From Fidelibacterota bacterium (lineage in GTDB: Bacteria; Fidelibacterota; Marinisomatia; Marinisomatales; UBA1611), in the NCBI GenBank assembly GCA_018658715.1, contig JABHUQ010000109.1, positions 21,511 to 85,510 of the forward strand: a stretch of 64,000 nt of DNA. Direction: 5' to 3'. Of the stretch, positions 1 to 61,334 are shown piece after piece (position 1 is the first letter of the stretch; each line of letters begins with the position of its first letter). The position numbers were made by a program, and so were the translations under genes. The notes under the pieces are model-generated. The model searched no databases. It worked only from the letters and a program-made list of their open reading frames with translations, and was not told where the DNA came from.

Positions 1-2459
1 AAGGACCTAAATCTGAAATTAAATGTGCAAAAGGAATGTATGCTCCACCAGCAACATTAAGTAGTGATATTTTAAAAAATACAATTGCCTTGAGTTGGCT
101 ATCTGTGAATGATGTTTCTGGATATCATTTATATAGGAATGATAGTTTAATTGTTGAAACAAAAGATTTATCATATTTGGAAAAAGGATTGAAATTTGAT
201 ACGAGTTACGATTATAAAATCGCATCGTATGACAAAGATGGAGATGATGGCCCTTATACAAGACTTACCCTAATGACTCACGAAGAAGTCATTGCCCCCA
301 ATTTATCGGGTAACGCTGATTTAGAATCAATTCAAATATCTTGGTCTAAACTTCCACTCAAAATTGATCATAAATATCGAATTTATAGGGATGGTGCTAT
401 GATTAAAGAATTAATAGATACATCCTATATTGATATTGTAACTCCTGGACAATTTTATTGTTATTCAATTTCATGTGTTGATACTTATGGCACAGAAGGA
501 CCCAAATCTAATGAAGAATGTTTGAAAATTATGGTGAATTATCCAGATCAATTATCAATCGTTGGTGATGTGAAACGTGTTATTTTTAAATGGGCAAAAA
601 TGATTGGTGCGGAATTATATCATATTTATCGAGTAGATAAAGATTCAGGAGAAAAAACATTCCTTACGAGTACAAAAGGGAATTATTACGAACATAAAGG
701 TCTAGAATTTGATACAGAGTATTGCTATAGTGTTTCGTCAATTGATCAAGATAATGAAGAAGGACCTCAATCACCAACCATGTGTGATGTAGTTCTTCCT
801 CCGCCACATTTATCATTAATTGATGTGACGTTTGTTGAAGAGTCCGGGAATGATTTATTAGATGGTCGTGAAAACGCTTTATTTATTGCACGAATTGTAA
901 ATGATGGTAGAAGTCCTGCAAGAGAATTAAAACCATGGTTAGAACCTTTAGGTGAATCATTAACACCATCTTTGATACTGTCAGAAGTACCTGTTTTTAA
1001 AAAACTAGATATTAATGATACATTAACTATTTCATTTCCGATTTTTGCTAAACTAAAAATTGAATCAGGAGAACGAAAATTTAATATTCGGGTGAATGAA
1101 TGGTCAGGACAAGATTTAAAACCTGAGCCAGTTAATTTTACCACTTTGGCAGTTGTCCCTCCTAATATGGTTATTGCTGATTATGCCATTGACAACGAAA
1201 TTGGGGCACACTACATCCCTAAAAATGAAATTGTTACATTAACTATTCGATTTCAAAATTTATCCATTGGTAAAACAGATACATCATTTTTAAGAATAAA
1301 TCGTGACCCATCCTTTAGTATTATTGATCATCAAGAAGCTTATGGTTTGGGGATGATTCCAGGTGGAGAATATATTGACTTTAGTTTCAATATATTCAGC
1401 CAAAAAGACGAATTTTCTATTTATTTTGATACATATGATTATTTTGGTGTTAAGAAAATAATCCCAATTCACCTTAAAACACTGACTCATTATAAAGGGG
1501 CAAAAGATTTAGCCACCTATGAAGTTCCGATGGCAACATTCGTGCAACCTGGAGAAAGGGAAGTAAAGCATACTTTATTGCAAAATATTCCATCCGCAAA
1601 AACTGATCGGGATGTTGTAGGTGTTGTATTAGGTAATCAAGCATTTTGGAGTAAAAAAATACATGGGAAATCTTCTGCTAAAGAAAATGTAAAATTAGTC
1701 AGAAAATATTTTGGAGATTTACTAGGTGTAAAAGACCATATGTTGTACCCATCTCAAAGTTGGACATTTGATGATGGAATTTCAAAAGTTGATTTATATG
1801 ATACGTTTGATCCTGACTTCGGGTATATTAGGAAAAAAATGGAATCAAGTCAAAAATATTCTCATTCTGACTCGATAGATTTAATCATTTATTTCTCAGG
1901 TGAAGGGACAACTATTGATGGAGAAAAATGTCTAATTCCATTAGATGCGGATCAATATAGAATAAGTTCATTTTATCCAGTTTCACAACTGTATGCTTCC
2001 TTAAATGAGTTGAAGAAATTGGAATATGTTGGAAATATTACTCTATTTATGGACATAGATTTTAATAATCCATCCTTTAAATCAAATAATATGTTAACAA
2101 TAGAAAATTCTGAAATTGATGAGACTCTTATTCCGGATAGTTTAATAGTTCTTTTCCCTGAGCAACAATTACCAGATGAATTGCTACCTCCAAAAGGAAT
2201 TACAGCTTTTTACGCTTCCAATATTTTTCAAAAATCCTACAATCATGTAGATGAGAATAATGGACTATTTACCTATTATCTATTGAAAGGATTAAAAGGT
2301 GAAGCAGATAATGGAGATAAAGTTGTTACAGTTGAAGAATTATATACATATATCGCAAAAAATGTCTATGATACTACAGCCATCTTGTACGGCTCTAATC
2401 ATCAGGTACCATTATTATTTGCTGGTAATCCGAATCAAGTATTATTTAGATTCCCATAA
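1..2459 (+). CDS. FN3-like repeat protein with C-terminal caspase-like (peptidase C14 fold) domain, 5'-truncated by window edge
   Basis: The frame stays open upstream of the ORF-track ATG at 36 and reads GPKSEIKCAKG, matching the internal repeat GPKSNEECLK. Repeats of ISWSKL..YRIYRDG..YCYSISCVD type. C-terminus IIYFSGEG...LIPLDA...LFMDIDFNN...GLFTYYLLKGLKGEAD matches the caspase-like fold. Confidence 0.8.
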   Translation, partial: GPKSEIKCAKGMYAPPATLSSDILKNTIALSWLSVNDVSGYHLYRNDSLIVETKDLSYLEKGLKFDTSYDYKIASYDKDGDDGPYTRLTLMTHEEVIAPNLSGNADLESIQISWSKLPLKIDHKYRIYRDGAMIKELIDTSYIDIVTPGQFYCYSISCVDTYGTEGPKSNEECLKIMVNYPDQLSIVGDVKRVIFKWAKMIGAELYHIYRVDKDSGEKTFLTSTKGNYYEHKGLEFDTEYCYSVSSIDQDNEEGPQSPTMCDVVLPPPHLSLIDVTFVEESGNDLLDGRENALFIARIVNDGRSPARELKPWLEPLGESLTPSLILSEVPVFKKLDINDTLTISFPIFAKLKIESGERKFNIRVNEWSGQDLKPEPVNFTTLAVVPPNMVIADYAIDNEIGAHYIPKNEIVTLTIRFQNLSIGKTDTSFLRINRDPSFSIIDHQEAYGLGMIPGGEYIDFSFNIFSQKDEFSIYFDTYDYFGVKKIIPIHLKTLTHYKGAKDLATYEVPMATFVQPGEREVKHTLLQNIPSAKTDRDVVGVVLGNQAFWSKKIHGKSSAKENVKLVRKYFGDLLGVKDHMLYPSQSWTFDDGISKVDLYDTFDPDFGYIRKKMESSQKYSHSDSIDLIIYFSGEGTTIDGEKCLIPLDADQYRISSFYPVSQLYASLNELKKLEYVGNITLFMDIDFNNPSFKSNNMLTIENSEIDETLIPDSLIVLFPEQQLPDELLPPKGITAFYASNIFQKSYNHVDENNGLFTYYLLKGLKGEADNGDKVVTVEELYTYIAKNVYDTTAILYGSNHQVPLLFAGNPNQVLFRFP

Positions 2460-2661
2460 TAAAGTAAGGTCCAAAATAAATGGATACCTGATAATTATGT
2501 ATCTTAATTCTGAATCTTTTAAAGAAAATATGCGAACGAAATTTCAGGTATGACAAATGTTTTATCATTGGGGTATAATCTAACGTTTTGGACAGATGTA
2601 TCTATAAAAAAGTGTTAATATAATCCTGTTTCTTTATTTTTCAGGTTCAATTAATTTCAAC

Positions 2662-5600
2662 ATGATGGTAAAGAAACTCTTAATAACCTTTATTCTCTTT
2701 TCGGTGGCATTTGGCCAAGCAGTATCCATATCTGGGTTTGTATTAAGTGAAAAGGGTAAAGGAATAAAAAAAGCAATTGTAACATTAAAATCACTGGATG
2801 GTGATGAAGTAGTAAACACTAAGTCAGATAAAAAAGGTGCTTTTAAGTTAGAAAATATTAGTCCAGCAAAATACATTCTAACGGCAAAGCATAAAAAATC
2901 TGGCGAATTTCAAGTTCAGTTAGAACCGAATGAAAATGGTAACACTGATTTAGTCGATTTAGAATTAACCCTATCAAAAGAAGAAATAGAATTAACTATT
3001 ATTTCATTCGGGGTAATGGATGAACCGATTGCTGGTGAAATAGAAACTATTAGTCAAAATTCAATTACTTTTTCAGGCACAGTGGTAAATGAAAAAGGGA
3101 AGGGACTCAAAGAAGTAACACTTTCATTTGTTGATGAAAATGGTGATACTATTTTTGAATCTAAAACAACTAGAAAAGGAGAATTTTCTTTTCCTGATTT
3201 GGTACCAAAAATTTATACCTTGATTGCATATCACAAAGAATTGGGAACATTTAAACGGAAATTTATAGAATCCAAGAATGGATATAGCCCTATTGATGAT
3301 TTTAAAATATCTTTGCCTGATACAACGGATATTTTATGGATTTATACCTTTTTTGGAGAAGGTCCTTTATCAGAAGATCCAACACTTACTATTCCAGCAC
3401 CTAAAACAAAATCTAAAATTGGGGAAATCATCATTGAATGGGCTGAATCACCTTATGCAGATATTTATGAATTATACGAAAATGATCAATTAATCTATGA
3501 AGGTGAATCCCCTCGGTATATGACCAAAGCTATTTCGGGTGTAACGCATTGTTTCAAAGTACGTGTTAAAGGTAAAGATGGATTGTTTGGTCCATTTACA
3601 GATGAAACGTGTGGGAATAGTTCTATTTCTACTCCTATGAATTTGGCTTCTACCGATTCGCAAAATACAATTTCATTACAATGGTTACCAACTGAAGGTG
3701 CTATTTCTTACAATATTTACAGAGATGATAAATTATTATCAAATCAGTCACATAATCGTTTTAAGGATCAAAATCTGTTATATGGTACTCTATACCAATA
3801 TAGGATATCTGCGATTGATAATTTTGGGACAGAAGGATTGTTATCCCACCCTGTTCAAAGTAAAACTCGTGAATTAATTCAAGCACCAATCTTATCATCA
3901 CTTGAAAGTGCTGATGCCATTGTACTTATTTGGAATGAAGTAGAGCATTCATCCAAATATGCTATTTATAGAGATGGGATTCCTGGTATAAAAACAACTA
4001 AAACTACTTTTATAGATTCAACACAAGCTGGCAGTAGCTTTTGTTATGAAGTAACTGCTATTGATAGTTTTCAATTGGAAAGTATCGTTTCAAATCGTCA
4101 CTGCGGCAAAGTGCAGGTGAAGGCACCGAGCACTCTATCTGTTGTAGGAGATGCCAAATCAATTCATCTTTCATGGGATACAGTTGAAGGCTCAAAATCC
4201 TATCAAATATATAAAAAATGGCCTGGTGGTGATTTTGATTTACTGTCTCAATCAAAGATGACTCATTTTAGAGATCCTGAATTAGGATATGATGATTCTT
4301 TATGTTATGCTATTTCTAGTATAGATCAAGATGGAGTTGAAAGTGATTTGTCAAACCAAATGTGTGCTTCAACATTAGAACCTCCTGAATTAACTATTTT
4401 AGGATTTGAATTGGTAGAACCATCAAAAAATGGTGCTTTAGATGCACGTGAAGATGGGAAAATGAGATTTTCAATTCAAAATATTGGTGAAAGTCCCGCA
4501 CACGAAATTACATTAATCGTTTATCCTGATGCCCCAAAAATATTTGCCTTAAATATGGATACAGTTTTGGTTTTTGATACCTTGAATTCGGATGAAATAA
4601 AACATGTTGATTTGGATGTGTCTGCAAAATTAAAAATAGGAACTGCCGAAAGATCATTCTCATTATATGCGACAGAAAAAGATGGCTACCACTTAAAAGA
4701 ACCCCACCCATTCTCATTTCAAACGGTTGCTGTAGTTCCACCTAAAATTTTACTATCTGATTTTGCAATATCGAATGAATTTGGCGTCCACTACATTCCA
4801 AAAAATGAAGTGGTAACACTCACCGGTCGTATTCAAAATGTTGGTGAAGGGTTAACGGAAAACGTTAAATTGAAATTTTTAGAAAATCAGTCTTATTCTA
4901 TGACTGATTTCAATAGTGATATTCTGTTAGATGAATTAAAGCCGGGTGCTTATTCTGACTTTACCATCGAATTTTCCAGTGTGCGAGACCATTTTTCTAT
5001 TCCAATTAAATCTACTGATTACCTGGGTATTGAACGCGAGCATATGATTGAATTAGAATTGATGAAACATTATCGTGGTCCAAAAGAATTAACATCATAT
5101 CCAATCGGGACAATGGTTGTTGATCCATACCCAGAAGAAATGAGTGATGTAGATATTGAAAACCATATTCCAATTGGGAAAAGGAATTCAAATGCATTAG
5201 CCATTGTATTTGGAATAGAATCTTATGATAACCCAACACTTCCAAAAGTTCAATTTGCAAACCGTGATGTCAAATTTATGAGAGCCTATCTTCAAAATAC
5301 ATTTGGTATGGACGACTATCAGGTTATTCCTTCTAAAATATGGCATATGGAAAGCGGGCCTACATTAGACGATTTAAATGCCACGTTGGATCCACATCAA
5401 GGTGATTTGCGGCATCGTATTGTAACGAGTAATAAGTATTCGGGTGTTGAATCTTTAGATATTTACATTTATTTCAATGGACTAGGAAAACATTCAAATG
5501 GGAAACCTTTTTTATTGCCCAAAGATGCTAATCCTGACAGAGATGTATCTCAATATGGGTTAGAAGAATTTTTAAGTCATTTATCCATGGTTTCTGTATT

Positions 5601-5952
5601 AAATACGGTTCGATCAATTACTGTTATGTTAGATATAAAATGGGTGAATAAACCCGATGAATCCAGTAGCGAATGGGAATTTCCATATTTATCTGAAAAA
5701 GTAACTGTTTTAGCAAGTTCCCAGGTTAATGGAAATTCAGACTATTATACAGACATGAACCATAGTTATTTCACATATACTGCATTGAAAGGTTTAAGTG
5801 GTGCAGCAGATGATGGTGATGGGGAAATTAGTATTTCTGAATTTTCGAGCTATATACAACAATCAATGTCTAAATTAAATCCAACCCAAAAACCCCACAT
5901 TATTAGTGTAGATAATGACCGTATTATTGTTGAATATTATGGTGTCGAATAA
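2662..5952 (+). CDS. FN3-like repeat protein with N-terminal carboxypeptidase-regulatory-like domains and C-terminal caspase-like domain; paralog of the upstream CDS
   Basis: Signal peptide MVKKLLITFILFSVAFGQA. Two SGFVLSEKGKGIKKAIVTLKS-type repeats, several FN3-like repeats, and a C-terminus colinear with the upstream ORF (IYIYFNGLG, VMLDIKW, YFTYTALKGLSGAADDGDG). Confidence 0.8.
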   Translation: MMVKKLLITFILFSVAFGQAVSISGFVLSEKGKGIKKAIVTLKSLDGDEVVNTKSDKKGAFKLENISPAKYILTAKHKKSGEFQVQLEPNENGNTDLVDLELTLSKEEIELTIISFGVMDEPIAGEIETISQNSITFSGTVVNEKGKGLKEVTLSFVDENGDTIFESKTTRKGEFSFPDLVPKIYTLIAYHKELGTFKRKFIESKNGYSPIDDFKISLPDTTDILWIYTFFGEGPLSEDPTLTIPAPKTKSKIGEIIIEWAESPYADIYELYENDQLIYEGESPRYMTKAISGVTHCFKVRVKGKDGLFGPFTDETCGNSSISTPMNLASTDSQNTISLQWLPTEGAISYNIYRDDKLLSNQSHNRFKDQNLLYGTLYQYRISAIDNFGTEGLLSHPVQSKTRELIQAPILSSLESADAIVLIWNEVEHSSKYAIYRDGIPGIKTTKTTFIDSTQAGSSFCYEVTAIDSFQLESIVSNRHCGKVQVKAPSTLSVVGDAKSIHLSWDTVEGSKSYQIYKKWPGGDFDLLSQSKMTHFRDPELGYDDSLCYAISSIDQDGVESDLSNQMCASTLEPPELTILGFELVEPSKNGALDAREDGKMRFSIQNIGESPAHEITLIVYPDAPKIFALNMDTVLVFDTLNSDEIKHVDLDVSAKLKIGTAERSFSLYATEKDGYHLKEPHPFSFQTVAVVPPKILLSDFAISNEFGVHYIPKNEVVTLTGRIQNVGEGLTENVKLKFLENQSYSMTDFNSDILLDELKPGAYSDFTIEFSSVRDHFSIPIKSTDYLGIEREHMIELELMKHYRGPKELTSYPIGTMVVDPYPEEMSDVDIENHIPIGKRNSNALAIVFGIESYDNPTLPKVQFANRDVKFMRAYLQNTFGMDDYQVIPSKIWHMESGPTLDDLNATLDPHQGDLRHRIVTSNKYSGVESLDIYIYFNGLGKHSNGKPFLLPKDANPDRDVSQYGLEEFLSHLSMVSVLNTVRSITVMLDIKWVNKPDESSSEWEFPYLSEKVTVLASSQVNGNSDYYTDMNHSYFTYTALKGLSGAADDGDGEISISEFSSYIQQSMSKLNPTQKPHIISVDNDRIIVEYYGVE

Positions 5953-5982: not shown

Positions 5983-6501
5983 ATGAAACAAATATTATCA
6001 ACTATTATTCTCATAGGTATGGCTGTTTCAATATTTGTATGGAAAGAATTTGATCGTATCAACCAGAAAGATTATCAACTACAACAAATTGCTGAACATA
6101 AGCTCAAGGAGAAGCAAGAATTGGATCAAGTCGATGCATTACGGCAAAAGGATATAGAGAGTAAAAGTAAGCATCGTGTCCATGTCTTACATGATAGCCA
6201 TCCAGAAACAAACACCTATGCTATTATATTAGATGCAACTGGATCACGTGACCCAGACCCAGGAGATGAATTAACATATGAGTGGATTCAAACTTCAGGG
6301 AATCCTGTAGAATTAAAACCACATGTAAAGGCTCCAATTATTTCATTTGAAGGATCTCCAGGAGAATATGTTTTTGAATTGATAATTACAGATAATTATG
6401 GAGCTACAACTAGAAAAGAAAAAAGTGTAATAATAAATCCAGAACCAAATCAAAGCCCAGTTGCAGATATTAAGGTAAGAAAAGGCAAAGGGACTATTTA
6501 A
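5983..6501 (+). CDS. Membrane-anchored PKD-domain-like protein
   Basis: N-terminal TM helix, then LDATGSRDPDPGDELTYEWIQTSG...YVFELIITDNYGATTRKEKSVII, typical of PKD-like folds. Confidence 0.65.
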   Translation: MKQILSTIILIGMAVSIFVWKEFDRINQKDYQLQQIAEHKLKEKQELDQVDALRQKDIESKSKHRVHVLHDSHPETNTYAIILDATGSRDPDPGDELTYEWIQTSGNPVELKPHVKAPIISFEGSPGEYVFELIITDNYGATTRKEKSVIINPEPNQSPVADIKVRKGKGTI

Positions 6502-6507
6502 TATATT

Positions 6508-7491
6508 ATGGAGAATTATTCTAAAGATTGTGTTGTTGGTATAGATATAGGTGGCACAAACACTAAATATGGTATCGTAAATAGAAGTGGAAAAATTCTA
6601 TTGTCTAGAAGTATCCCAACAAAAGGTCACCTACCATTTTCAGATTTTCTATCTCGGTCAACATCAGAGATAAAACAACACATTAATAATTTAGATTCAT
6701 CCTATGAATGTTTAGCAGTAGGAATGGGAGTACCAGATGGAAATTTCCTAAACGGTATGATGCATGACCCACCTAATTTTTCTTGGTCAAATGTTCCAAT
6801 TGCATCTTTATTCTCTGAATTATTTGAATGTCCAGTTGTTATAACGAATGATGCAAATGCAGCTGCCATGGGAGAAGCACGTTATGGTGTTGCGCAAAAA
6901 TATGATCATTTCATTGAAATAACATTAGGCACTGGATTAGGGAGTGGCCTCTATGTAGATGGTTCAGTTGTTTTGGGGCATTCTGGCCATGCAGGTGAGA
7001 TGGGACATATTATTGTTGAACAAGGTGGACGACAATGTGAGTGTGGACTATCTGGATGCTTAGAAATGTATGTCTCCAATAAAGGAATTATGGAAACAAT
7101 AAAAGAATGTTTAATTCGTCATCCTGAGTCATCTCTGAATGGAATTATTTTCGGAGATCTAAATGGTAAACATATCGATGATGCCTTTGATAACAGTGAT
7201 AAAGCAGCAGTTGAATGTTATCAATATACAGGTGAAATGCTGGGGAAAGGATTGGCTACAGCCGTCTCAATATTAAGTCCTGAAGCATTCATTTTCTATG
7301 GTGGCTTTAGTAATGCTGGTGAGCGTCTTTTGGCATCTACTAAAAATTCAATGAATAAACATTTAATGGATGTATTTAAAGGAACCGTAACTCTCAAGGT
7401 TTCTAATATGAAAGAAGGAACAGGAGCAATTCTAGGTGCAACCGCATTAGCTTGGGATGTGGCTGACGATAGAATTAAACTCAATTACTAA
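6508..7491 (+). CDS. ROK family sugar kinase / glucokinase-like
   Basis: GIDIGGTNTKYGIV ATP-binding motif; GHAGEMGHIIVEQGGRQCECGLSGCLEMYVS ROK zinc-binding signature. Confidence 0.9.
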   Translation: MENYSKDCVVGIDIGGTNTKYGIVNRSGKILLSRSIPTKGHLPFSDFLSRSTSEIKQHINNLDSSYECLAVGMGVPDGNFLNGMMHDPPNFSWSNVPIASLFSELFECPVVITNDANAAAMGEARYGVAQKYDHFIEITLGTGLGSGLYVDGSVVLGHSGHAGEMGHIIVEQGGRQCECGLSGCLEMYVSNKGIMETIKECLIRHPESSLNGIIFGDLNGKHIDDAFDNSDKAAVECYQYTGEMLGKGLATAVSILSPEAFIFYGGFSNAGERLLASTKNSMNKHLMDVFKGTVTLKVSNMKEGTGAILGATALAWDVADDRIKLNY

Positions 7492-9178: not shown

Positions 9179-12148
9179 TTAAATGCCAGTGGATTCTTCT
9201 TCGTCCATGATTTCAATTTCTGGTGGGATAGGTTTATAAATAGTTCCATTACCAGTCATACCCTCAATAGCAATATGCATGGGGTAATCTAATTTTATCC
9301 AATCTACATATGTTCCTTTTTGGTGAACGTGCGATGACTTTAACCAGTCATGATCAATAAAATCATCTTTCATTTTTGGATCAATTGTAAAATATCCAAT
9401 ACGCAAACTTGTCAAGTTTTGAAAAAAGTGACTTCCAAATGAAGGATCAATTGGTTGATCTTTTAATCCAACTTCAATAATAGCTTGTGCTTTAGATATT
9501 TCTTCCCATTCAACGGGTATTCCGAGCCATGGATCTGCTGAACCCCATCTGCCTGGGCCAACCAACACATAATGATCGGATTTAAAAATTTTATTGAGTT
9601 TAGCAATTTCACGCGCAATTTCATGTGTTTTTGCAGTATCAAACATTTTAGGTCTCACATAAATAATATCAGTTAAATCAGGGATGAACCCATCGCCTAA
9701 TGTAATATGACTTCTGCAAAAAATATCTTCATGAGATGTTGTAATTGTAGTCGGTGTTTGGTTTCCTGTTATTCCCATTGGCTTTATTTGCAATAAACAA
9801 AATTCTGCTTGAGTTGGATTCCCTTTTACAATATTAATCGCAAATTCAATTTCTACAGGGCAGCCTAAGGACGTTTGGGATATTTGAAGCAGTTTTTCCA
9901 ATATTTCAGGGAGTGGAATCAATTTCCAATTTAAAATAGGAGCAAAAGTAACCACACGTGTTCCAGGATAACTGAGAGAATCTCTCAAAATTTGGTCATC
10001 ACTTGATATAACGCTTCCAACCCATTTTAGTATGCCATCTTTTTCAGCAACGGATAATTTATAGGATGTTAAGTCAGATGTTTTTGATGTGGATGTTAAA
10101 TCTAAACTATAAAATTGGTATTGAGAATTTTGTAGAGTGGAGCGAACGGAATAAAATTGTGGTAGAATACCAGGATATTTAGGAGATATTCTTAAACATC
10201 TTTCTCCATCTACAATTGTCCGGCCAAAACCAAGAGCCAAATAGGCTACTCCTTCGTCACGTTTCATATAAGAAACAGGATAATAATTATAACTTTGTGC
10301 TACACCACTGATTGTGGGATAAAAACGTTTCCCATGATGCTGGCCTGTTATTTCCATTATAATGACAGCCATTTTTTCTTCTTCAATCCGATGATTTGTT
10401 TTATCCATCAATGTTTTTGCACGTTGAAAAAAAGTAGATGCAAAAACTTTTTTAATGGCGACATATAAACCATTTAAGCGAGTATGCATATCCGAATCAG
10501 CATTAGGCAACATATACGTTTCATAGGCGCCAGCTAATGGTTGATATTGAGAATCTTCTAATAAACTAGATGATCGAACAGCAATAGGAAAATGGTTATT
10601 GTGTAAAAAGGATTCAAGCTTAATTCTTAAATCAACAGATAAATCACTTTTTAGGAAATATTTTAAAATGACTTTATCTGATTTAGCTTTTAATGTTTTT
10701 TCCCATAAATGATTATCTTTCATGAATTGATCAAATTCATCCGTTCCAATAACAGCTGTTTTTGGTATTCTTATTTTTATTTGTGGGAATTCATCATGAA
10801 GATTTGCTTCATTAATCATAGATTTTGCAAAGGCTAACCCGCGAGCTTTTCCACCCAACGAGCCACCACATAATCTAAAAAATGATCCAGATTCTTCTGG
10901 ATGTTCAGTAGAATAATTGAATATTTGACTTTTTTCATTTCCTATGACAGGAGACGTTAAAGCATCTAACAAGTTTGTTCTTAATTCTTCACCCGTTTTA
11001 AAATCTTTTAAATTCATGGCTCTAATTCGAGACGCAAGTTGGAACTCAGTCCGAGCAGCTAACCAATTTGAGAAATGATTATACTGACCGTGGTATAACA
11101 AGGATTGAATATTTGTTTTTTCAATTACTTTAGTTAATTCTGGTATTGTTGAAGCTGAAGCGATTTTTCGACCATTTTTACCACGAAATATAAAATCACC
11201 AAATCCAAAGTTAGCTACCATGAATTCCCTTAATTCTTGCAACAGAGTTGGCGAATATTTATGTAAAAATTGTGCACCATATTTATTTGCCGTTTTTTTA
11301 TTGCTTTTATCTGTGGAGTGTAAAAGAACAGGGATAGTTGGTTCAATTTTTCTAACCCATTTTAAAAAAGCAAAACCTGCATCTGGATTTTCTTCACCTT
11401 GTTTGAAAAATTGAATATCAGAAATGATTCCTATTGTATTATGTCTATATTTTTTAAAGAATTTTTGAGCTGTTTCAAAATTGGGAGTAAATAAAACTTT
11501 AGGTCGACCTCTCATATGGAGAAGCATTTTTGTATTGTTTAGGCTTTTATCTGTCAAATTTCGAATATGGTAAACTATTTCCCGATATATAAATGGAAGA
11601 AGAGTTGAATACATTCGGGGAGAATCTTCAATAACAATGATGGCACGAACATCTCCTTTCAAAATATCTCTTTTTGCATTGCGACGATCTTCAAAATATT
11701 TAATAATGGCAGGAAATACAGCTGCATCTCCGGACCAAATGAATACACGATCAATTGATTTGGATGTAATTTGATCTGATAGTTGTTTTAATTCAGACTC
11801 ATCAAATAATAAAAGGACAACAGGCTTCTTTGGATAAATCTCTTTTATTGCCTTTCCCAATGAAATAGGATCTTTATCTTCTATTCGTAACATAACTATA
11901 ACGAGATCAAATTTCCGTTTACGAAGTAATCCTAACGCATCTGCTGCCGTGGATGCTTGAGTAACGCGAGGAGCATAGTTAAAATTCATACCAATATATT
12001 CTGTAAGAATTTGTTCGGTCAATCGACCATCTTCTTCCAAAATAAAAGCATCATATGGGCTAGAGACCAACAAGATGTTGTGAATCCGATTTATCATCAA
12101 ATCTTGGAAGTCAAAAACTTGATTATTTAATTTACTGCCTGGTTTCAT
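9179..12148 (-). CDS. Response-regulator-like N-terminal region fused to a PEP synthase/PPDK-type ATP-grasp (PEP/pyruvate-binding) domain
   Basis: HNILLVSSPYDAFILEEDG...FDLVIVMLRIEDKDPISLGKAIKEIYPKKPVVLLL receiver-like; CGGSLGGKARGLAFAKSM and PIAVRSSSLLEDSQYQPLAGAYETYMLPN PPDK_N-like motifs. Confidence 0.82.
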   Translation of the reverse strand: MKPGSKLNNQVFDFQDLMINRIHNILLVSSPYDAFILEEDGRLTEQILTEYIGMNFNYAPRVTQASTAADALGLLRKRKFDLVIVMLRIEDKDPISLGKAIKEIYPKKPVVLLLFDESELKQLSDQITSKSIDRVFIWSGDAAVFPAIIKYFEDRRNAKRDILKGDVRAIIVIEDSPRMYSTLLPFIYREIVYHIRNLTDKSLNNTKMLLHMRGRPKVLFTPNFETAQKFFKKYRHNTIGIISDIQFFKQGEENPDAGFAFLKWVRKIEPTIPVLLHSTDKSNKKTANKYGAQFLHKYSPTLLQELREFMVANFGFGDFIFRGKNGRKIASASTIPELTKVIEKTNIQSLLYHGQYNHFSNWLAARTEFQLASRIRAMNLKDFKTGEELRTNLLDALTSPVIGNEKSQIFNYSTEHPEESGSFFRLCGGSLGGKARGLAFAKSMINEANLHDEFPQIKIRIPKTAVIGTDEFDQFMKDNHLWEKTLKAKSDKVILKYFLKSDLSVDLRIKLESFLHNNHFPIAVRSSSLLEDSQYQPLAGAYETYMLPNADSDMHTRLNGLYVAIKKVFASTFFQRAKTLMDKTNHRIEEEKMAVIIMEITGQHHGKRFYPTISGVAQSYNYYPVSYMKRDEGVAYLALGFGRTIVDGERCLRISPKYPGILPQFYSVRSTLQNSQYQFYSLDLTSTSKTSDLTSYKLSVAEKDGILKWVGSVISSDDQILRDSLSYPGTRVVTFAPILNWKLIPLPEILEKLLQISQTSLGCPVEIEFAINIVKGNPTQAEFCLLQIKPMGITGNQTPTTITTSHEDIFCRSHITLGDGFIPDLTDIIYVRPKMFDTAKTHEIAREIAKLNKIFKSDHYVLVGPGRWGSADPWLGIPVEWEEISKAQAIIEVGLKDQPIDPSFGSHFFQNLTSLRIGYFTIDPKMKDDFIDHDWLKSSHVHQKGTYVDWIKLDYPMHIAIEGMTGNGTIYKPIPPEIEIMDEEESTGI

Positions 12149-20761: not shown

Positions 20762-22347
20762 TAAACCAACTTTCTATAAAAAATTATGCCATTATTGATG
20801 AATTAAGTCTTCCATTTTATGAAGGATTAACCGTCGTTACAGGTGAAACAGGGTCTGGGAAATCTATTCTCCTACAAGCAATGAGTGTTGCGTTAGGTGG
20901 CAAAACATCAAAAATCATGGTAAGAAGTCACGAGTCAAGAGCCGTGGTTGAAGCTAGTTCTAATCAAGGAGACTTTAGACGAATTATAACATCAAATGGC
21001 CATCAAAAATCATTTATAAATGATGAGCCAACAGCCATCGATCTATTTAGGAATCAAACACAATATTTAGCAGATTTCCATGGCCAACATGAACAGCAAG
21101 TTATCCTGAAAAAAGATTCACACATTGATTATTTAGATCGATATGGGAATTTAGAAGCAGATAGCATAAAAGTGCAGGATTTATACCAATTATTACAATT
21201 GAAAAGAAAACAATTGAAGAATGCCATTTTATCTTCTCAAGAGCGAAAAGATCGTTTAGAACTTATCCAATTTCAGCTCCAGGAAATTCAAGCAGTTAAC
21301 CCTGAATTGGGAGAAGATATTTCATTAGACAATGCCTATCGGAAGATGGTTCACCAAGAAGAAATATTAACAACATTACAATCAACTGATGGACAACTTT
21401 CGCAAAATTCAGAATCAATCCAAAATCAGTTATCGAGTGTTAAAAACCAAATTGAAAAATTATGTAAATATGACAGCCAATTGGGAATATTGGCTAATAC
21501 AATTGATAGTGCTCTCATCTCAGTCCAAGATGTATCTTCTGGTATTAGCGACTATTTGGTGAATCTTGACCATGATCCAGACCAGTTAATAGAAGTGCAA
21601 GATAGACTTAATGCCATAGAAGGACTCAAAAGAAAATACGGTGGCCAGTTAGAAATGGTTTTAGAGAAAAAAGAAGATATTGAGAAAGAAATTCAAACAT
21701 TGTATTCTGCGAGCCAATCGGTAAACAGTTTATATGATGATATTGAAAAACTCGAAAGTGATTACAGGACGAAGGCAACCTTTCTTCATGATAAACGTAT
21801 TATAATGGCAAAGAAGTTGGCTAAAGATGTTATAGCGATTATGGAAAATTTAAATATGCCTCATGCACAATTTGAATCACGAGTTACATTATCTCCATCT
21901 AAGGATTCATTTATTACTATCAATAATATAAGCGTTAATAGTTATCCCAAAGGAATTGATCAAGTGGAATTCTACTTAAGTGCAAATCCGGGTGAACAAT
22001 TAAAGCCTTTAACGAATATTGCATCTGGGGGTGAAACTTCTAGAATTATGTTAGCTTTTAAGACTGTATTTCAAAAAAAAGATATGGTAGAAACGCTAAT
22101 ATTTGATGAAATTGATACAGGTATATCGGGTGAAACAGCAGAAAAAGTTGCTGATTGTTTAAGAAAATTAGCCAGAGATAAACAGGTTTTTTGTATTTCT
22201 CACTTACCCCAAATTACACGAAAGGCTGACTTCCATTTGCATGTGAGTAAATCCGTTGATAACAATCAGACTCACGTTGAAGCAAGCTATTTAGACAAAG
22301 AAAAAAGTGAAATAATATTAAATCAATTTTTTAACTCACAAATATAA
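20758..22347 (+). CDS. recN: DNA repair protein RecN
   Basis: MINQLSIKNYAIIDEL, Walker A TGETGSGKSI, ASGGETSRIMLAFK, LIFDEIDTGISG. Confidence 0.95.
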   Translation: MINQLSIKNYAIIDELSLPFYEGLTVVTGETGSGKSILLQAMSVALGGKTSKIMVRSHESRAVVEASSNQGDFRRIITSNGHQKSFINDEPTAIDLFRNQTQYLADFHGQHEQQVILKKDSHIDYLDRYGNLEADSIKVQDLYQLLQLKRKQLKNAILSSQERKDRLELIQFQLQEIQAVNPELGEDISLDNAYRKMVHQEEILTTLQSTDGQLSQNSESIQNQLSSVKNQIEKLCKYDSQLGILANTIDSALISVQDVSSGISDYLVNLDHDPDQLIEVQDRLNAIEGLKRKYGGQLEMVLEKKEDIEKEIQTLYSASQSVNSLYDDIEKLESDYRTKATFLHDKRIIMAKKLAKDVIAIMENLNMPHAQFESRVTLSPSKDSFITINNISVNSYPKGIDQVEFYLSANPGEQLKPLTNIASGGETSRIMLAFKTVFQKKDMVETLIFDEIDTGISGETAEKVADCLRKLARDKQVFCISHLPQITRKADFHLHVSKSVDNNQTHVEASYLDKEKSEIILNQFFNSQI

Positions 22348-56047: not shown

Positions 56048-58375
56048 ATGAAGCTTAATAAATTGATAATGTTTTTTGTTGGTTCTTTTGTAATGATCAA
56101 TAGTATAAATAGCCAGGATTTTTACGACATTGATACCATTAATACTATAGAAATTACATTTCAAGAATCGAACTGGGACTATTTACTTGATCAACTTGTC
56201 TATCAAGGGGATGAAGATAGACTAATTGGTACGGTGGCAATCAATGGTAATATTTTTGATAGTGTAGGTATTCGGTATAAAGGGAATAGTACATACACAG
56301 CCAATCAAGTAAAAAACCCTCTAAATATTAAATTAGATCATATTATTGATGACCAATCAATTGAAGGTTATGGCACTATAAAATTAGCCAATGCCTTCAA
56401 AGACCCTAGTTTTATTAGAGAAGTATTGAGTTATGAAATTGCCAGAAAATATTTTCCAGCCAGTCAGGCGAACTTTGCCAATGTTTATATCAATGGTACT
56501 CATCTTGGGTTGTATACTAGTGACCAGAGTATTGATAAATTCTTCATGCGGGCTCATTTTGGGAGTGATGAAAATACTAGTGTTAAAGGCGAAATCACTT
56601 CGGGGGGAGGTCCTCCATCAGGCGGAGTTTGGCAATATGTAGGTCAAGACTCAAACAGTTATTTTGGATTATACGATATGAAATCTGATTATGGTTGGGA
56701 TGAGCTAATTGATTTTCTTGATACATTAAATAATTATAATGAATATGTTGACCAAGTCTTAAATATTGATAGACATCTTTGGTTTTTGGCTTTTTCTAAC
56801 CTTATTGTGAATCTTGACGGTCCAATAAACAATCCACAAAATTATTATCTATACAAAGATGATTTCGGAAGGTTTAATCCAATACCATGGGACTTAAATG
56901 AAAGTTTCGGTGTTTTTTCGCATCATCAAACTTTAGGGAACCTGGACACTTATGGCTTACAGAACTATAGTCCTTTTACTAATTTAAATGAGAGTGGATT
57001 CCCAGTTATCAGTGAAATATTAAACAATGATACATATCGGAAAATATATGTTGCACATCTAAAAACAATGATTGGAGATAACTTCTCTAATAATTGGTAT
57101 GAAACTAGAGCGCTAGAGATTCAAGATATTATAGCAGCAGATGTATTGGCTGATCAGAATAAATTTTATAGTTATTCTAATTTCACTGATAATGTATATA
57201 ATCAAATTGGGGGTGCAGGACCGCCAGGCCCGGGGAATCAACCAATTATCGGAATTGTTCAGTTAATGAACGCAAGAGTTGATTACTTATTAGGACTCAA
57301 TGAATTACAACTCGAATCCCCACAGATTAGTAATGTATTCAATTCACCTGAAAATGTATCTTCTTCAGATGAGATATGGTTTTCTGCGCAGGTTAGCAAT
57401 GTGAATGATGTGTTCCTAGCATATCGATCAAACTCATATGGTATTTTTGATAAAATAAATATGTATGATGATGGCAACCATGGAGATGGACAGGAAGGAG
57501 ATGGGGTTTACGGTATATCTATAATAGCTGGCCCTACTGATATTCAGTATTATATTTACGCTGAAAATAGCGAAGCGGTGACATTTTTACCTGCAAATTC
57601 TGAATATGAATTTTACGATATTGATGTTGAAACTAGTTTTACCAGTGACCTAGTAATTAACGAGTTTCTAGCGGCCAGTGAAAATTGTTGTGGGAATAGT
57701 ATATTTAATGCTAATTCTGAAGATTTTGTTGAGTTGTATAATATTGGTATAGAGCCAATTAATATCAATGGATGGGGATTTAGCGATACAGATGGTTTAA
57801 TTACGACAGTTGCCCTAGACACAAGTATTGCTCCAGGAGAATTTCTCGTGCTATGGTACACGGGAGATAATAATGGTTTTCCTGAAATAAATGAAAAACT
57901 TTCAAGTGATGGGGAAACTATTTACATAGCTGATGCAGATGGGAACCCAGTCATTAGTTATAATTTTGGTCCACAAACAGATGATATATCTTTTGGAAGA
58001 ATATCTGATGGTGATGAAGAATGGGTTTTTATGAATCCTACGCCAGGAGCAACAAATACAAGTGGATTAAGTTTAAAAGATAAAACAGGTATACCAAGTC
58101 AATACGCCCTTTACCAAAACTACCCTAATCCATTTAACCCTGTGACTACACTTCGCTATGACATACCAGAAGATGGATTAGTCAACGTCACTATCTATGA
58201 TATGATGGGTAGAGGAGTCAAGACACTAGTGAATAGTTTACAAACAGCAGGGAATAGTACAATTCAATGGAACGCTACCAATAACCAAGGTCAGTTAGTT
58301 TCTGCGGGTGTTTATCTTTATCAGATACAGGCTAGGGAATACATTAGTACCAAAAAAATGATGCTACTTAAATAA
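56048..58375 (+). CDS. CotH kinase family secreted protein with lamin-tail-like domain and T9SS type A sorting domain
   Basis: IRYKGNSTYTANQVKNPLNIKLD; NLDGPINNPQNYYLYKDDFGRFNPIPWDLNESFG; DLVINEFLAASENCC...EDFVELYNIG; C-terminal YPNPFNPVTTLRYDIPEDG...GVYLYQIQAREYISTKKMMLLK. Confidence 0.92.
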   Translation: MKLNKLIMFFVGSFVMINSINSQDFYDIDTINTIEITFQESNWDYLLDQLVYQGDEDRLIGTVAINGNIFDSVGIRYKGNSTYTANQVKNPLNIKLDHIIDDQSIEGYGTIKLANAFKDPSFIREVLSYEIARKYFPASQANFANVYINGTHLGLYTSDQSIDKFFMRAHFGSDENTSVKGEITSGGGPPSGGVWQYVGQDSNSYFGLYDMKSDYGWDELIDFLDTLNNYNEYVDQVLNIDRHLWFLAFSNLIVNLDGPINNPQNYYLYKDDFGRFNPIPWDLNESFGVFSHHQTLGNLDTYGLQNYSPFTNLNESGFPVISEILNNDTYRKIYVAHLKTMIGDNFSNNWYETRALEIQDIIAADVLADQNKFYSYSNFTDNVYNQIGGAGPPGPGNQPIIGIVQLMNARVDYLLGLNELQLESPQISNVFNSPENVSSSDEIWFSAQVSNVNDVFLAYRSNSYGIFDKINMYDDGNHGDGQEGDGVYGISIIAGPTDIQYYIYAENSEAVTFLPANSEYEFYDIDVETSFTSDLVINEFLAASENCCGNSIFNANSEDFVELYNIGIEPININGWGFSDTDGLITTVALDTSIAPGEFLVLWYTGDNNGFPEINEKLSSDGETIYIADADGNPVISYNFGPQTDDISFGRISDGDEEWVFMNPTPGATNTSGLSLKDKTGIPSQYALYQNYPNPFNPVTTLRYDIPEDGLVNVTIYDMMGRGVKTLVNSLQTAGNSTIQWNATNNQGQLVSAGVYLYQIQAREYISTKKMMLLK

Positions 58376-58415
58376 AAGCAATAGGAGCATTCATGAAAAT
58401 AAAGAATATAAAAAA

Positions 58416-61334
58416 ATGAGACAGAAACACAGTACTTTCAACTTAATAATGATCATAGCAATATCATTTGCCTGTAACCTGTTTGCGCAAGAACAGACTG
58501 TCGGATTATTCTTAAACGAAGAACAAAGTTTTGAAGGTTATACTTTATTCACTTCAATGCGTTCTACTGCAACTTATCTAATTGATAATGAAGGTAGAGA
58601 AGTTCATTCTTGGGATACTCAAAATGAAAGAACTCAGATGGCTTATTTAGCGGGAAATGGAGATTTAGTTGTTTCAGAAACTCCCATTGGAAATAATAGT
58701 ATCAATGCTCCAGGTGGTACAGGTATTGTAGAAAAATACGATTGGGATGGAAATCTTATTTGGAATTATGAACTAAATGATTCAGACTCCAGATTACATC
58801 ATGATATTGAAGTATTACCAAATGGAAATATTCTAATGATTGTATGGGAAAATAAAACTGTAACGGAAGCAATAGAGCAAGGTCGAAATCCAAATAATTT
58901 AGATGATGATGCACTTTGGCCGGACTACATTATTGAAGTTGAACCTAATGGAATTTCCGGAGGAAATATTATTTGGGAATGGCATGCTTGGGATCACCTT
59001 ATTCAAGATTATGATTCTTCAAAACTAAATTACGGTGTAGTTATGGAACATCCGGAACTAATTGATTTAAACTATTCTACTAGTAATCATCAAGCTGGAA
59101 TTGCCGATTGGCTTCATACAAACGGAATTGATTATAATGAAGAGTTAGATCAAATAATAATTAGCGTTCATAATTTTAGTGAAGTATGGATTATTGATCA
59201 TAGTACAACTACTGCGGAAGCAGCATCTCATGAAGGTGGAAACAACAATAAAGGTGGTGATTTACTATACCGTTGGGGCAACCCACAAGCGTATGATTCT
59301 GGTACAAGTGCTGGCAGAAAACTTTTTGGGCAACATGATTCACAATGGATAGAAAATGGTTTTCCGGGTGAAGAAAACATTTTGGTTTATAACAATGGAA
59401 TTGGAAGACCGGAAGGAAATTATTCAACTGTAGATGAAATTGGACTTCCTGTTGATGGAAATGGAATTTATTTATATCCAGAAATTGGTGAAGCTTATGG
59501 ACCAACCAACCAAAACTGGATATACCAAGCAGAGAATCCGACAGATTTTTATTCTCAAAATATTTCAGGTACACAACGTTTACCAAACGGTAACACTCTA
59601 ATCTGTGAAGGTCAAACTGGAACTTTTTTTGAAGTCACGGAAGATTCGGAGATTGTTTGGGAATATGTGAATCCTGTTGTGGAAAATGGTCCCTTATATT
59701 GGGATGAAGAAATTCCAAGCGGACAAGGTGGTTTTGAAAACAGTACATTCAAAATAAAACGATATGCTTCCGATTATTCTGCTTTTGATGATGTAGAATT
59801 AATTCCGGGAGAAGTAATAGAGTTGCCAACCGAAAATCCGGAAAATTATCATTATAAAATTGTAGATACTGGACAAATTCTAAACTATGATGATGAAGAT
59901 GAAATTTCAGAGCCTTCAATTGATGAACCTTTTTATGGTCAAGATGCACAATATGATGGAAATCAACCAAATTATATAGATAATGGAGATGGAACAATCA
60001 CTGATAATGTTACCGGTTTGATGTGGACAAAAACTTGTGATCTAACTGGTGATGGTGTAATTGATCATGATGATAAACTTACTTACGATGAAGCCGTCGC
60101 AAGTGCTTCGTCTGTTGATGTTGGCGGATATAATGATTGGCGACTTCCGAATATCAAAGAACAATATTCTCTGATTTTATTCAGCGGTATTGATTGCAGT
60201 AATTATCAAGGAAATGATCCATCGGAATTAACACCATTTATTGATACAGATTACTTTGATTTTGGTTACGGCGATACAAATGCAGGAGATCGTATCATCG
60301 ATTCTCAAATGGCTACTTCCACTCTTTATGTTGGGACTACAATGAACGGTAACGAAACGATGTTTGGGGTAAATTTCGCAGATGGCAGAATTAAAGGTTA
60401 TCCTTCCGATCAACTTCAAAATGGTGATTATAAAGAATATTATGTTTATTATGTTAGAGGAAATGAAGTATACGGGATTAATGATTTTATTGATAATGGC
60501 GATGGCACAATTACCGATAATGCCACCGATTTGATGTGGCAACAGAACGATACCGAAACAGGCTTGAACTGGGAAGAAGCGCTTGATTGGGCTCAGCAAA
60601 AAAATAGTGAAAACTATCTTGGATATAATGATTGGCGATTACCAAATGTAAAAGAACTTCAAAGTATTGTCGATTATACCCGTTCACCTGCGACAACCAA
60701 TTCAGCTGCAATTGATCCACTTTTTACCTGTTCTGTTATTGCGGATGAAGGTGGAGACAATAATTATCCATCCTACTGGACAGGGACGACTCATACCAAT
60801 ATGCAGAATGGATATAATGGTGCATATGTGTGTTTTGGTGAGGCATTAGGTTGGATGGAAATGCCACCCAACTCTGGTAATCAACAATTGCTTGATGTTC
60901 ATGGGGCAGGTGCGCAACGAAGTGATCCCAAATCTGGTGATCCAGAAGATTGGCCCTATGGACATGGACCGCAGGGAGATGTGATTCGAATATATAACTA
61001 TGGTCGTCTTGTTCGGGACAGTCAATCAACAGTTGGCATTATAGACGGAGGGAGAAGTACGGAATTACCCCATAGATTCAGTATTAAATCCGTTTATCCC
61101 AATCCATTTAATCCAGTGACTACTATTGAGTTTGTATTATTACGAACATCTGATGTACGTATATCAATATTTAGTACAACAGGACGAGAGATTGACAATC
61201 TGCATAATGGTGTTAAAGAAGCAGGTACTCATCAAATCACATGGAATGCGAAAAATCATCCTAGCGGATTGTATTTTATAAAGATGGTATCAAATGGATT
61301 TATACAGACGCAGAAGTTAATTTTATTGAAATAA
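58416..61334 (+). CDS. Arylsulfotransferase-like (ASST) domain fused to two DUF1566 domains and a T9SS sorting domain
   Basis: STATYLIDNEGREVHSWDTQNERTQMAYL...LHHDIEVLPNGNILMIVWE; two copies of YIDNGDGTITDNVTGLMW...GYNDWRLPNIKE; C-terminal YPNPFNPVTTIEFV...SGLYFIKMVSNGFIQTQKLILLK. Confidence 0.85.
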   Translation: MRQKHSTFNLIMIIAISFACNLFAQEQTVGLFLNEEQSFEGYTLFTSMRSTATYLIDNEGREVHSWDTQNERTQMAYLAGNGDLVVSETPIGNNSINAPGGTGIVEKYDWDGNLIWNYELNDSDSRLHHDIEVLPNGNILMIVWENKTVTEAIEQGRNPNNLDDDALWPDYIIEVEPNGISGGNIIWEWHAWDHLIQDYDSSKLNYGVVMEHPELIDLNYSTSNHQAGIADWLHTNGIDYNEELDQIIISVHNFSEVWIIDHSTTTAEAASHEGGNNNKGGDLLYRWGNPQAYDSGTSAGRKLFGQHDSQWIENGFPGEENILVYNNGIGRPEGNYSTVDEIGLPVDGNGIYLYPEIGEAYGPTNQNWIYQAENPTDFYSQNISGTQRLPNGNTLICEGQTGTFFEVTEDSEIVWEYVNPVVENGPLYWDEEIPSGQGGFENSTFKIKRYASDYSAFDDVELIPGEVIELPTENPENYHYKIVDTGQILNYDDEDEISEPSIDEPFYGQDAQYDGNQPNYIDNGDGTITDNVTGLMWTKTCDLTGDGVIDHDDKLTYDEAVASASSVDVGGYNDWRLPNIKEQYSLILFSGIDCSNYQGNDPSELTPFIDTDYFDFGYGDTNAGDRIIDSQMATSTLYVGTTMNGNETMFGVNFADGRIKGYPSDQLQNGDYKEYYVYYVRGNEVYGINDFIDNGDGTITDNATDLMWQQNDTETGLNWEEALDWAQQKNSENYLGYNDWRLPNVKELQSIVDYTRSPATTNSAAIDPLFTCSVIADEGGDNNYPSYWTGTTHTNMQNGYNGAYVCFGEALGWMEMPPNSGNQQLLDVHGAGAQRSDPKSGDPEDWPYGHGPQGDVIRIYNYGRLVRDSQSTVGIIDGGRSTELPHRFSIKSVYPNPFNPVTTIEFVLLRTSDVRISIFSTTGREIDNLHNGVKEAGTHQITWNAKNHPSGLYFIKMVSNGFIQTQKLILLK

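Follow-up and report, generated by a model that had tools for sequence, protein, structure and literature searches.

A conserved tandem pair of predicted exported pseudo-caspases in a family of Candidatus Marinimicrobia

TbMCA4 (MCA4), a trypanosome pseudo-metacaspase, reportedly kept the caspase fold after loss of catalysis and has a biological role. Human FLIP(L) is a functional pseudo-caspase that works with a partner caspase (PMC7586951). In bacteria, Klemencic et al. (2019) counted 858 pseudo-enzymes among 9,994 orthocaspases, 90% of them in Alphaproteobacteria and Cyanobacteria, with the dyads YS, YA, FS, YN, YG and QC and with conserved S1 Asp residues (PMC6426788); Ser and Tyr had earlier been reported as the commonest replacements (Asplund-Samuelsson et al. 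2012, PMC3501461). The functions of such proteins have hardly been tested; knock-out of SyOC in Synechocystis altered oxidative stress tolerance (PMC7889975). Here we describe two adjacent genes, FN1 and FN2, in a 64,000-nucleotide stretch (hereafter, the window) of the Fidelibacterota bacterium assembly GCA_018658715.1 (contig JABHUQ010000109.1, forward-strand positions 21,511 to 85,510). On sequence comparison, their products are bacterial pseudo-orthocaspases by fold and by dyad loss, but stand apart from the known ones in their dyad, their domain architecture, the tandem layout and the taxon. Like the described bacterial proteins (PMC6426788, PMC7889975), they combine a C14 p20 fold with replacement of both dyad residues, keep S1 Asp despite dyad loss (the full pair in FN2, part of it in FN1), and tie each substitution type to one architecture. 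Unlike those proteins, they form a tandem, carry a fixed E-D dyad (FN1) or L/Y with K/T/R (FN2), have FN3/CARDB arms, are predicted to be exported and occur family-wide. Marinimicrobia are not mentioned by Klemencic et al. (PMC6426788), nor is an E-D dyad in the pseudo-orthocaspase literature compared, and our literature search found no publication on the FN1/FN2 pair or on Marinimicrobia caspases.

FN1 lies at positions 3..2459 (+) of the window, which opens inside the gene (open reading frame list, Pfam). Only the C-terminal 818 residues of a predicted exported protein of 1614 residues are seen there; the full gene is at L006:5126-9970 in the host genome, with its start (L006:5126) upstream of the window. 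FN2, at 2662..5952 (+), encodes a predicted exported paralog of 1096 residues. The pseudo-caspase domains are encoded at 1494..2456 in FN1 and 5068..5949 in FN2. When these were aligned to two intact paralogs that this genome encodes on another contig (C109), which carry YYSGHG and DACFSG, four codons occupied the catalytic His and Cys columns. In FN1, Glu replaces His (GAA, 1902..1904, YFSGEG) and Asp replaces Cys (GAT, 2058..2060, DIDFNN); in FN2, Leu replaces His (CTA, 5482..5484, YFNGLG) and Lys replaces Cys (AAA, 5638..5640, DIKW). The codons are exactly where an earlier note on this DNA had placed them, and its proposal of pseudo-caspases in tandem, with both catalytic residues replaced, agrees with the alignments to intact paralogs and to orthologs. 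The motifs LIPLDA and GLFTYYLLKGLKGEAD, which it had cited as conserved parts of the fold, are present in FN1; FN2 has LLPKDA and SYFTYTALKGLSGAAD instead. Its description of FN3-repeat proteins was correct but incomplete. Pfam assigns CarboxypepD_reg, FN3 repeats, an Ig/CARDB-like region and the pseudo-caspase to FN1, and CarboxypepD_reg, FN3, CARDB and the pseudo-caspase to FN2, each following a hydrophobic N-terminal leader recognized by eye.

The Glu/Asp pair is fixed in FN1: each of the 26 orthologs with coverage of the two sites has it, and the surrounding motifs, GEGTT and MD[VI]DFNN, are near-invariant. Of the 536 five-residue windows of FN1, only three are invariant throughout, GEGTT being one; the MDIDFNN window takes 11th place, and the MD[VI]DFNN windows fall within the top 15. 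At the FN2 His position, by contrast in kind, the 24 aligned orthologs have Leu (11) or Tyr (13); at the Cys position they have Thr (14) or Lys (9), with one residue unread, and two further orthologs have Arg. The two paralogs carry different substitutions at the catalytic positions, as had been claimed, but a fixed new pair in FN1 is a different thing from bounded drift in FN2. The His-Cys dyad is never present in 26 FN1 and 26 FN2 orthologs. Moreover, no Cys in either caspase domain is kept in at least half of the orthologs, which excludes a migrated catalytic Cys for the family, and none of the conserved His residues of the two domains is at a dyad position. An intact dyad elsewhere in either domain was thereby ruled out, and the alignments support loss of catalysis in both proteins.

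The fold itself has been retained. FN1 matched Pfam Peptidase_C14 (PF00656) at 30.9 bits (cut-off 21.4; E 2.7e-7 and 2.9e-8), and the window FN2 gave no match to that family; at E 0.01, C14 matches were obtained for 21/23 FN1 orthologs and 10/24 FN2 orthologs. AlphaFold2 models of both proteins, built from ortholog alignments, had predicted local distance difference test values mostly of 85-95 within the caspase-like domain. With Foldseek, the MALT1 paracaspase (3v4o) led the caspase-fold matches for both models, with template modelling scores, normalised to MALT1, of 0.56 for FN1 and 0.67 for FN2 (E 3e-9 for the latter). MALT1 was also the first match in the PDB for a sequence profile that included active relatives; neither FN1 by itself nor its own profile gave a useful match when PDB sequences were searched. 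Judged from these matches and models, the C-terminal domains of FN1 and FN2 are of the caspase (C14) fold, as the earlier note had supposed for both paralogs, and the objection that they might not be caspase-like falls away. MALT1, although the nearest solved caspase fold by Foldseek and by profile, is an active Cys protease with 13-16% identity to FN1 and FN2 over the aligned part.

The likeness to MALT1 extends by alignment to acidic residues of the S1 pocket, which in MALT1 are Asp365 and Asp462 (PMC4357240). The Asp of the DxC motif, equivalent to Asp462, is kept in 23/23 FN1 orthologs (2052..2054 in the window) and in 24/24 FN2 orthologs (5632..5634). At the Asp365 position, FN2 has the Asp of an RD motif (5266..5268), again in 24/24 orthologs. 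Since the FN1 replacements have become fixed throughout the family, the caspase fold seems to have been retained for a role other than proteolysis.

Could FN1 have acquired a new chemistry? Its Glu and Asp, together with the S1 Asp, might form a metal-binding or acid-base site, making FN1 a neofunctionalised enzyme or a metal-gated sensor and FN2 its non-catalytic partner. Glu and Asp are invariant along with their flanks, which is stronger than mere loss requires, and the drift seen at the FN2 positions is absent from those of FN1. However, about a fifth of the FN1 caspase positions are invariant anyway (63/290, 22%), and we know of no caspase-fold enzyme that uses such a Glu/Asp pair, which counts against this explanation; we regard it as unlikely. 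Near the same site, 23/25 FN1 orthologs (e.g., L050, L052, L054 and L063) carry a run of 4-17 lysines with mixed AAA/AAG codons, about 115 residues from the C-terminus. The run lies in a disordered loop right after the old Cys strand, in the place of the caspase inter-subunit linker, and is possibly a basic loop facing the FN1 acidic site. It is absent from the window's genus, and for that reason a poly-lysine loop was rejected as a general key to FN1.

We searched 33 genomes from the Candidatus Marinimicrobia (Fidelibacterota) family to which the window belongs, and 28 of them contained FN1 or FN2, whole or partial. One genome without the pair (G004) has only active copies and the end of the downstream gene f0 at a contig edge; the other four are 55-82% complete. 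Outside the family but within the order, the pair occurs only in G033, which the tree places inside the family. The FN1/FN2 replacements recur in at least 10 genera, which is more than chance would give. Beyond one short chance match, a scan of 84,980 species with FN1 returned nothing but Candidatus Marinimicrobia/Neomarinimicrobiota records and marine metagenome-assembled genomes labelled simply bacterium. Some of the matching records bear names of the single-cell genome type (AG-457-F09, AG-470-O07, AG-390-N21 and AM-382-M06), so the pair is not a binning artefact; contamination of a metagenome-assembled genome was rejected as its source on this ground and on the uniform GC content of the window. 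Twenty-two contigs span both genes; in each of them, FN1 and FN2 are adjacent and on the same strand.

We estimated selection on the caspase domains from pairwise Nei-Gojobori ratios of nonsynonymous to synonymous substitution rates (dN/dS). The values were 0.02-0.10 for FN1 (0.06 for the two closest FN1 pairs) and 0.035-0.24 for FN2, similar to or under those of the neighbouring ROK kinase (0.06-0.22). Such ratios show purifying selection on the pair at the sequence level and argue against decay. Loss of the catalytic residues is also what a decaying pseudogene pair or an assembly artefact would present, but the open frames in all relatives, the dN/dS well under 1, the fixed residues and the occurrence in single-cell genomes leave that explanation almost no probability, and decay or frameshift was rejected. 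The suggestion that catalysis was lost under selection is upheld by the Glu/Asp pair fixed in 26/26 FN1 orthologs, the low dN/dS and the family-wide retention of the pair.

In a maximum-likelihood tree computed after removal of the catalytic motif columns, the active proteins, FN1 and FN2 each formed one group, and FN1 and FN2 lay together as sister clades on one side of a branch with support of 100/99, although long branches could mislead such a tree. FN1 and FN2 also share three insertions, of 4, 7 and 4 residues, and have lost 2 residues next to the His loop, all features missing in active relatives. Based on these indels and the tree, one duplicated pseudo-ancestor is preferred over two independent losses. 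The simplest history would be a single pseudo-ancestor, its duplication, fixation of Glu/Asp in FN1 and bounded drift in FN2.

A search for an active paralog, which the earlier note had advised for the same locus in relatives, succeeded elsewhere in the same genome. On contig C109, intact CARDB-C14 caspases are encoded twice at L007:3-7512 (G000:C109), next to a DUF4384 protein; one of the two also has WD40-like repeats. The GC content of this patch is high (0.41-0.54) compared with about 0.35 in the rest of the contig, each part making up about half. Since one half is GC-poor like the host and the other GC-rich, a recent island is more likely than plain contamination. Intact C14 copies occur in five family genomes, this one and four others, sporadically and never beside the FN1-FN2 pair. 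The active proteins (L007, L048, L126-L135) resemble FN1 and FN2 in having CARDB-like domains followed by C14, in their DUF4384 or LPP20-type neighbours and, at one locus (L048, in G004), in a tandem layout, which thus exists among intact caspases too. They differ in the intact HC dyad, in lacking the 4-, 7- and 4-residue insertions and, in those scanned with Pfam, in lacking an FN3 array. Two further caspase loci were noted. A caspase on a long branch in G010 (L056:3225-6074) has Lys for His with Cys intact (FAGKGA, DACFTG), a separate half-dead case. In G115, also from this order, a CARDB caspase-type gene is cut off by the end of the contig (L137:1-5000). Its neighbours are genes for a reverse transcriptase, an Avd-like small protein, an FGE-sulfatase-like product and a DUF4384-like protein; judged by eye, the arrangement resembles a diversity-generating retroelement sited at a caspase gene.

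Since this genome and four others of the family encode active homologs that share the CARDB-C14 layout, one may ask whether the pair controls an active C14 caspase in its own cell by binding to it; FLIP(L) offers a precedent for such a pseudo-caspase regulator (PMC7586951). Seven high-quality family genomes (≥90% complete, ≤5% contaminated) carry the pair, and five of these (G003, G013, G014, G023 and G025) have no intact C14 by C14 and caspase-domain profiles, which argues against a FLIP-like regulator. A partner caspase in the same cell is therefore not a family-wide feature, the two copies on C109 notwithstanding; FLIP(L) works with one, whereas most genomes with FN1/FN2 have none. With the active copies sporadic, never adjoining the pair and, in this genome, in a GC-rich patch, regulation of a co-encoded caspase is disfavoured, and we consider it improbable.

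The conserved neighbourhood begins with a DUF3228 gene just upstream of the pair. FN1 and FN2 are separated by 202 bases in the window and mostly by 2-60 bases in relatives (median near 20-40 bp). After FN2 comes f0 (5983..6501, +), a 172-residue single-pass membrane protein with a PKD domain (Pfam, synteny, distribution); in 25 contigs it follows FN2, directly in 17 and via an LPP20 lipoprotein in 8. A ROK-family sugar kinase (6508..7491, +; Pfam, synteny) is the last conserved gene of the run. From the DUF3228 side, FN1-FN2-f0-ROK looks like one operon; a promoter scan of it gave no excess over shuffles. A second, more distant f0 paralog lies away from the pair (G000:C17:217-693, and in several other genomes), and a few genomes that lack the pair (G075, G078, G115, G124 and G125) have f0-like genes as well.

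Large FN3/CARDB proteins with predicted export, one of which keeps a pocket for basic residues, might instead be secreted receptors or inhibitors whose caspase folds bind proteins of another organism, whether prey, host or competitor. The pair is strongly conserved, without the diversification expected of conflict proteins. PADLOC gave no anti-phage defence match for FN1, FN2 or f0, and no relatives of the pair were found in the viral and plasmid collections searched; an anti-phage defence role and a viral or plasmid origin were rejected accordingly. We judge binding to another organism highly improbable.

The explanation that we favour, and hold to be probable, is that FN1 and FN2 are a tandem exported pair whose C14 domain, of orthocaspase type, became a non-catalytic binding module within an envelope complex and has been preserved by selection. 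The FN3/CARDB arms would serve as periplasmic or cell-surface spacers, and the two caspase folds as binding modules. FN2 would offer its retained acidic S1 pocket, which in active relatives holds a basic residue (Arg/Lys), and FN1 the fixed acidic cluster of Glu, Asp and Asp at its old active site. Both might join the co-transcribed f0 in one complex, with the LPP20 lipoprotein in some genera. The scaffold or receptor role suggested earlier stays hypothetical. Several points weigh against this explanation. The binding role, localisation, complex and ligand are what we infer; export is predicted from hydrophobic leaders judged by eye, and co-transcription from gene spacing alone. Several distant pairs were saturated in dS. 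The S1 pocket was assigned by alignment to MALT1/TbMCA2 and not from model coordinates, and at the Asp365 position FN1 has mostly Asn (18/23; Asp in 5/23), so the full basic-residue pocket is kept in FN2 only. A bolder proposal, which we offer tentatively and with more doubt than belief, is that FN1 Glu, Asp and S1 Asp form a new acidic site, possibly metal- or lysine-binding, that gates a caspase-fold heterocomplex; the pair would then be a protease-derived envelope sensor or assembly device, near-core in a widespread marine family.

Two other observations concern the window. The type IX secretion system sorting domain Por_Secre_tail was absent from FN1 and FN2 in the Pfam scan, although two other proteins of the window have it; C-terminal tails of that system are present on CotH-kinase and arylsulfotransferase/Lcl_C proteins at 56048-61334; given these tailed proteins, the organism probably has the system. 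At 9179-12148 (-), a response-regulator receiver-like domain is joined to a PPDK-type ATP-binding domain in one protein.

The feature is real, well conserved and more extensive than first noted. In a major uncultured marine lineage (SAR406), a dead caspase fold forms a conserved, predicted exported pair, and in most good genomes FN1 and FN2 are the only remaining caspase fold. The pair separates that fold from proteolysis and cell death, and its fixed residues provide a clean set with which to probe the function of a pseudo-active site. Should the E-D site prove to bind a specific target, the family would document a route from protease to receptor.

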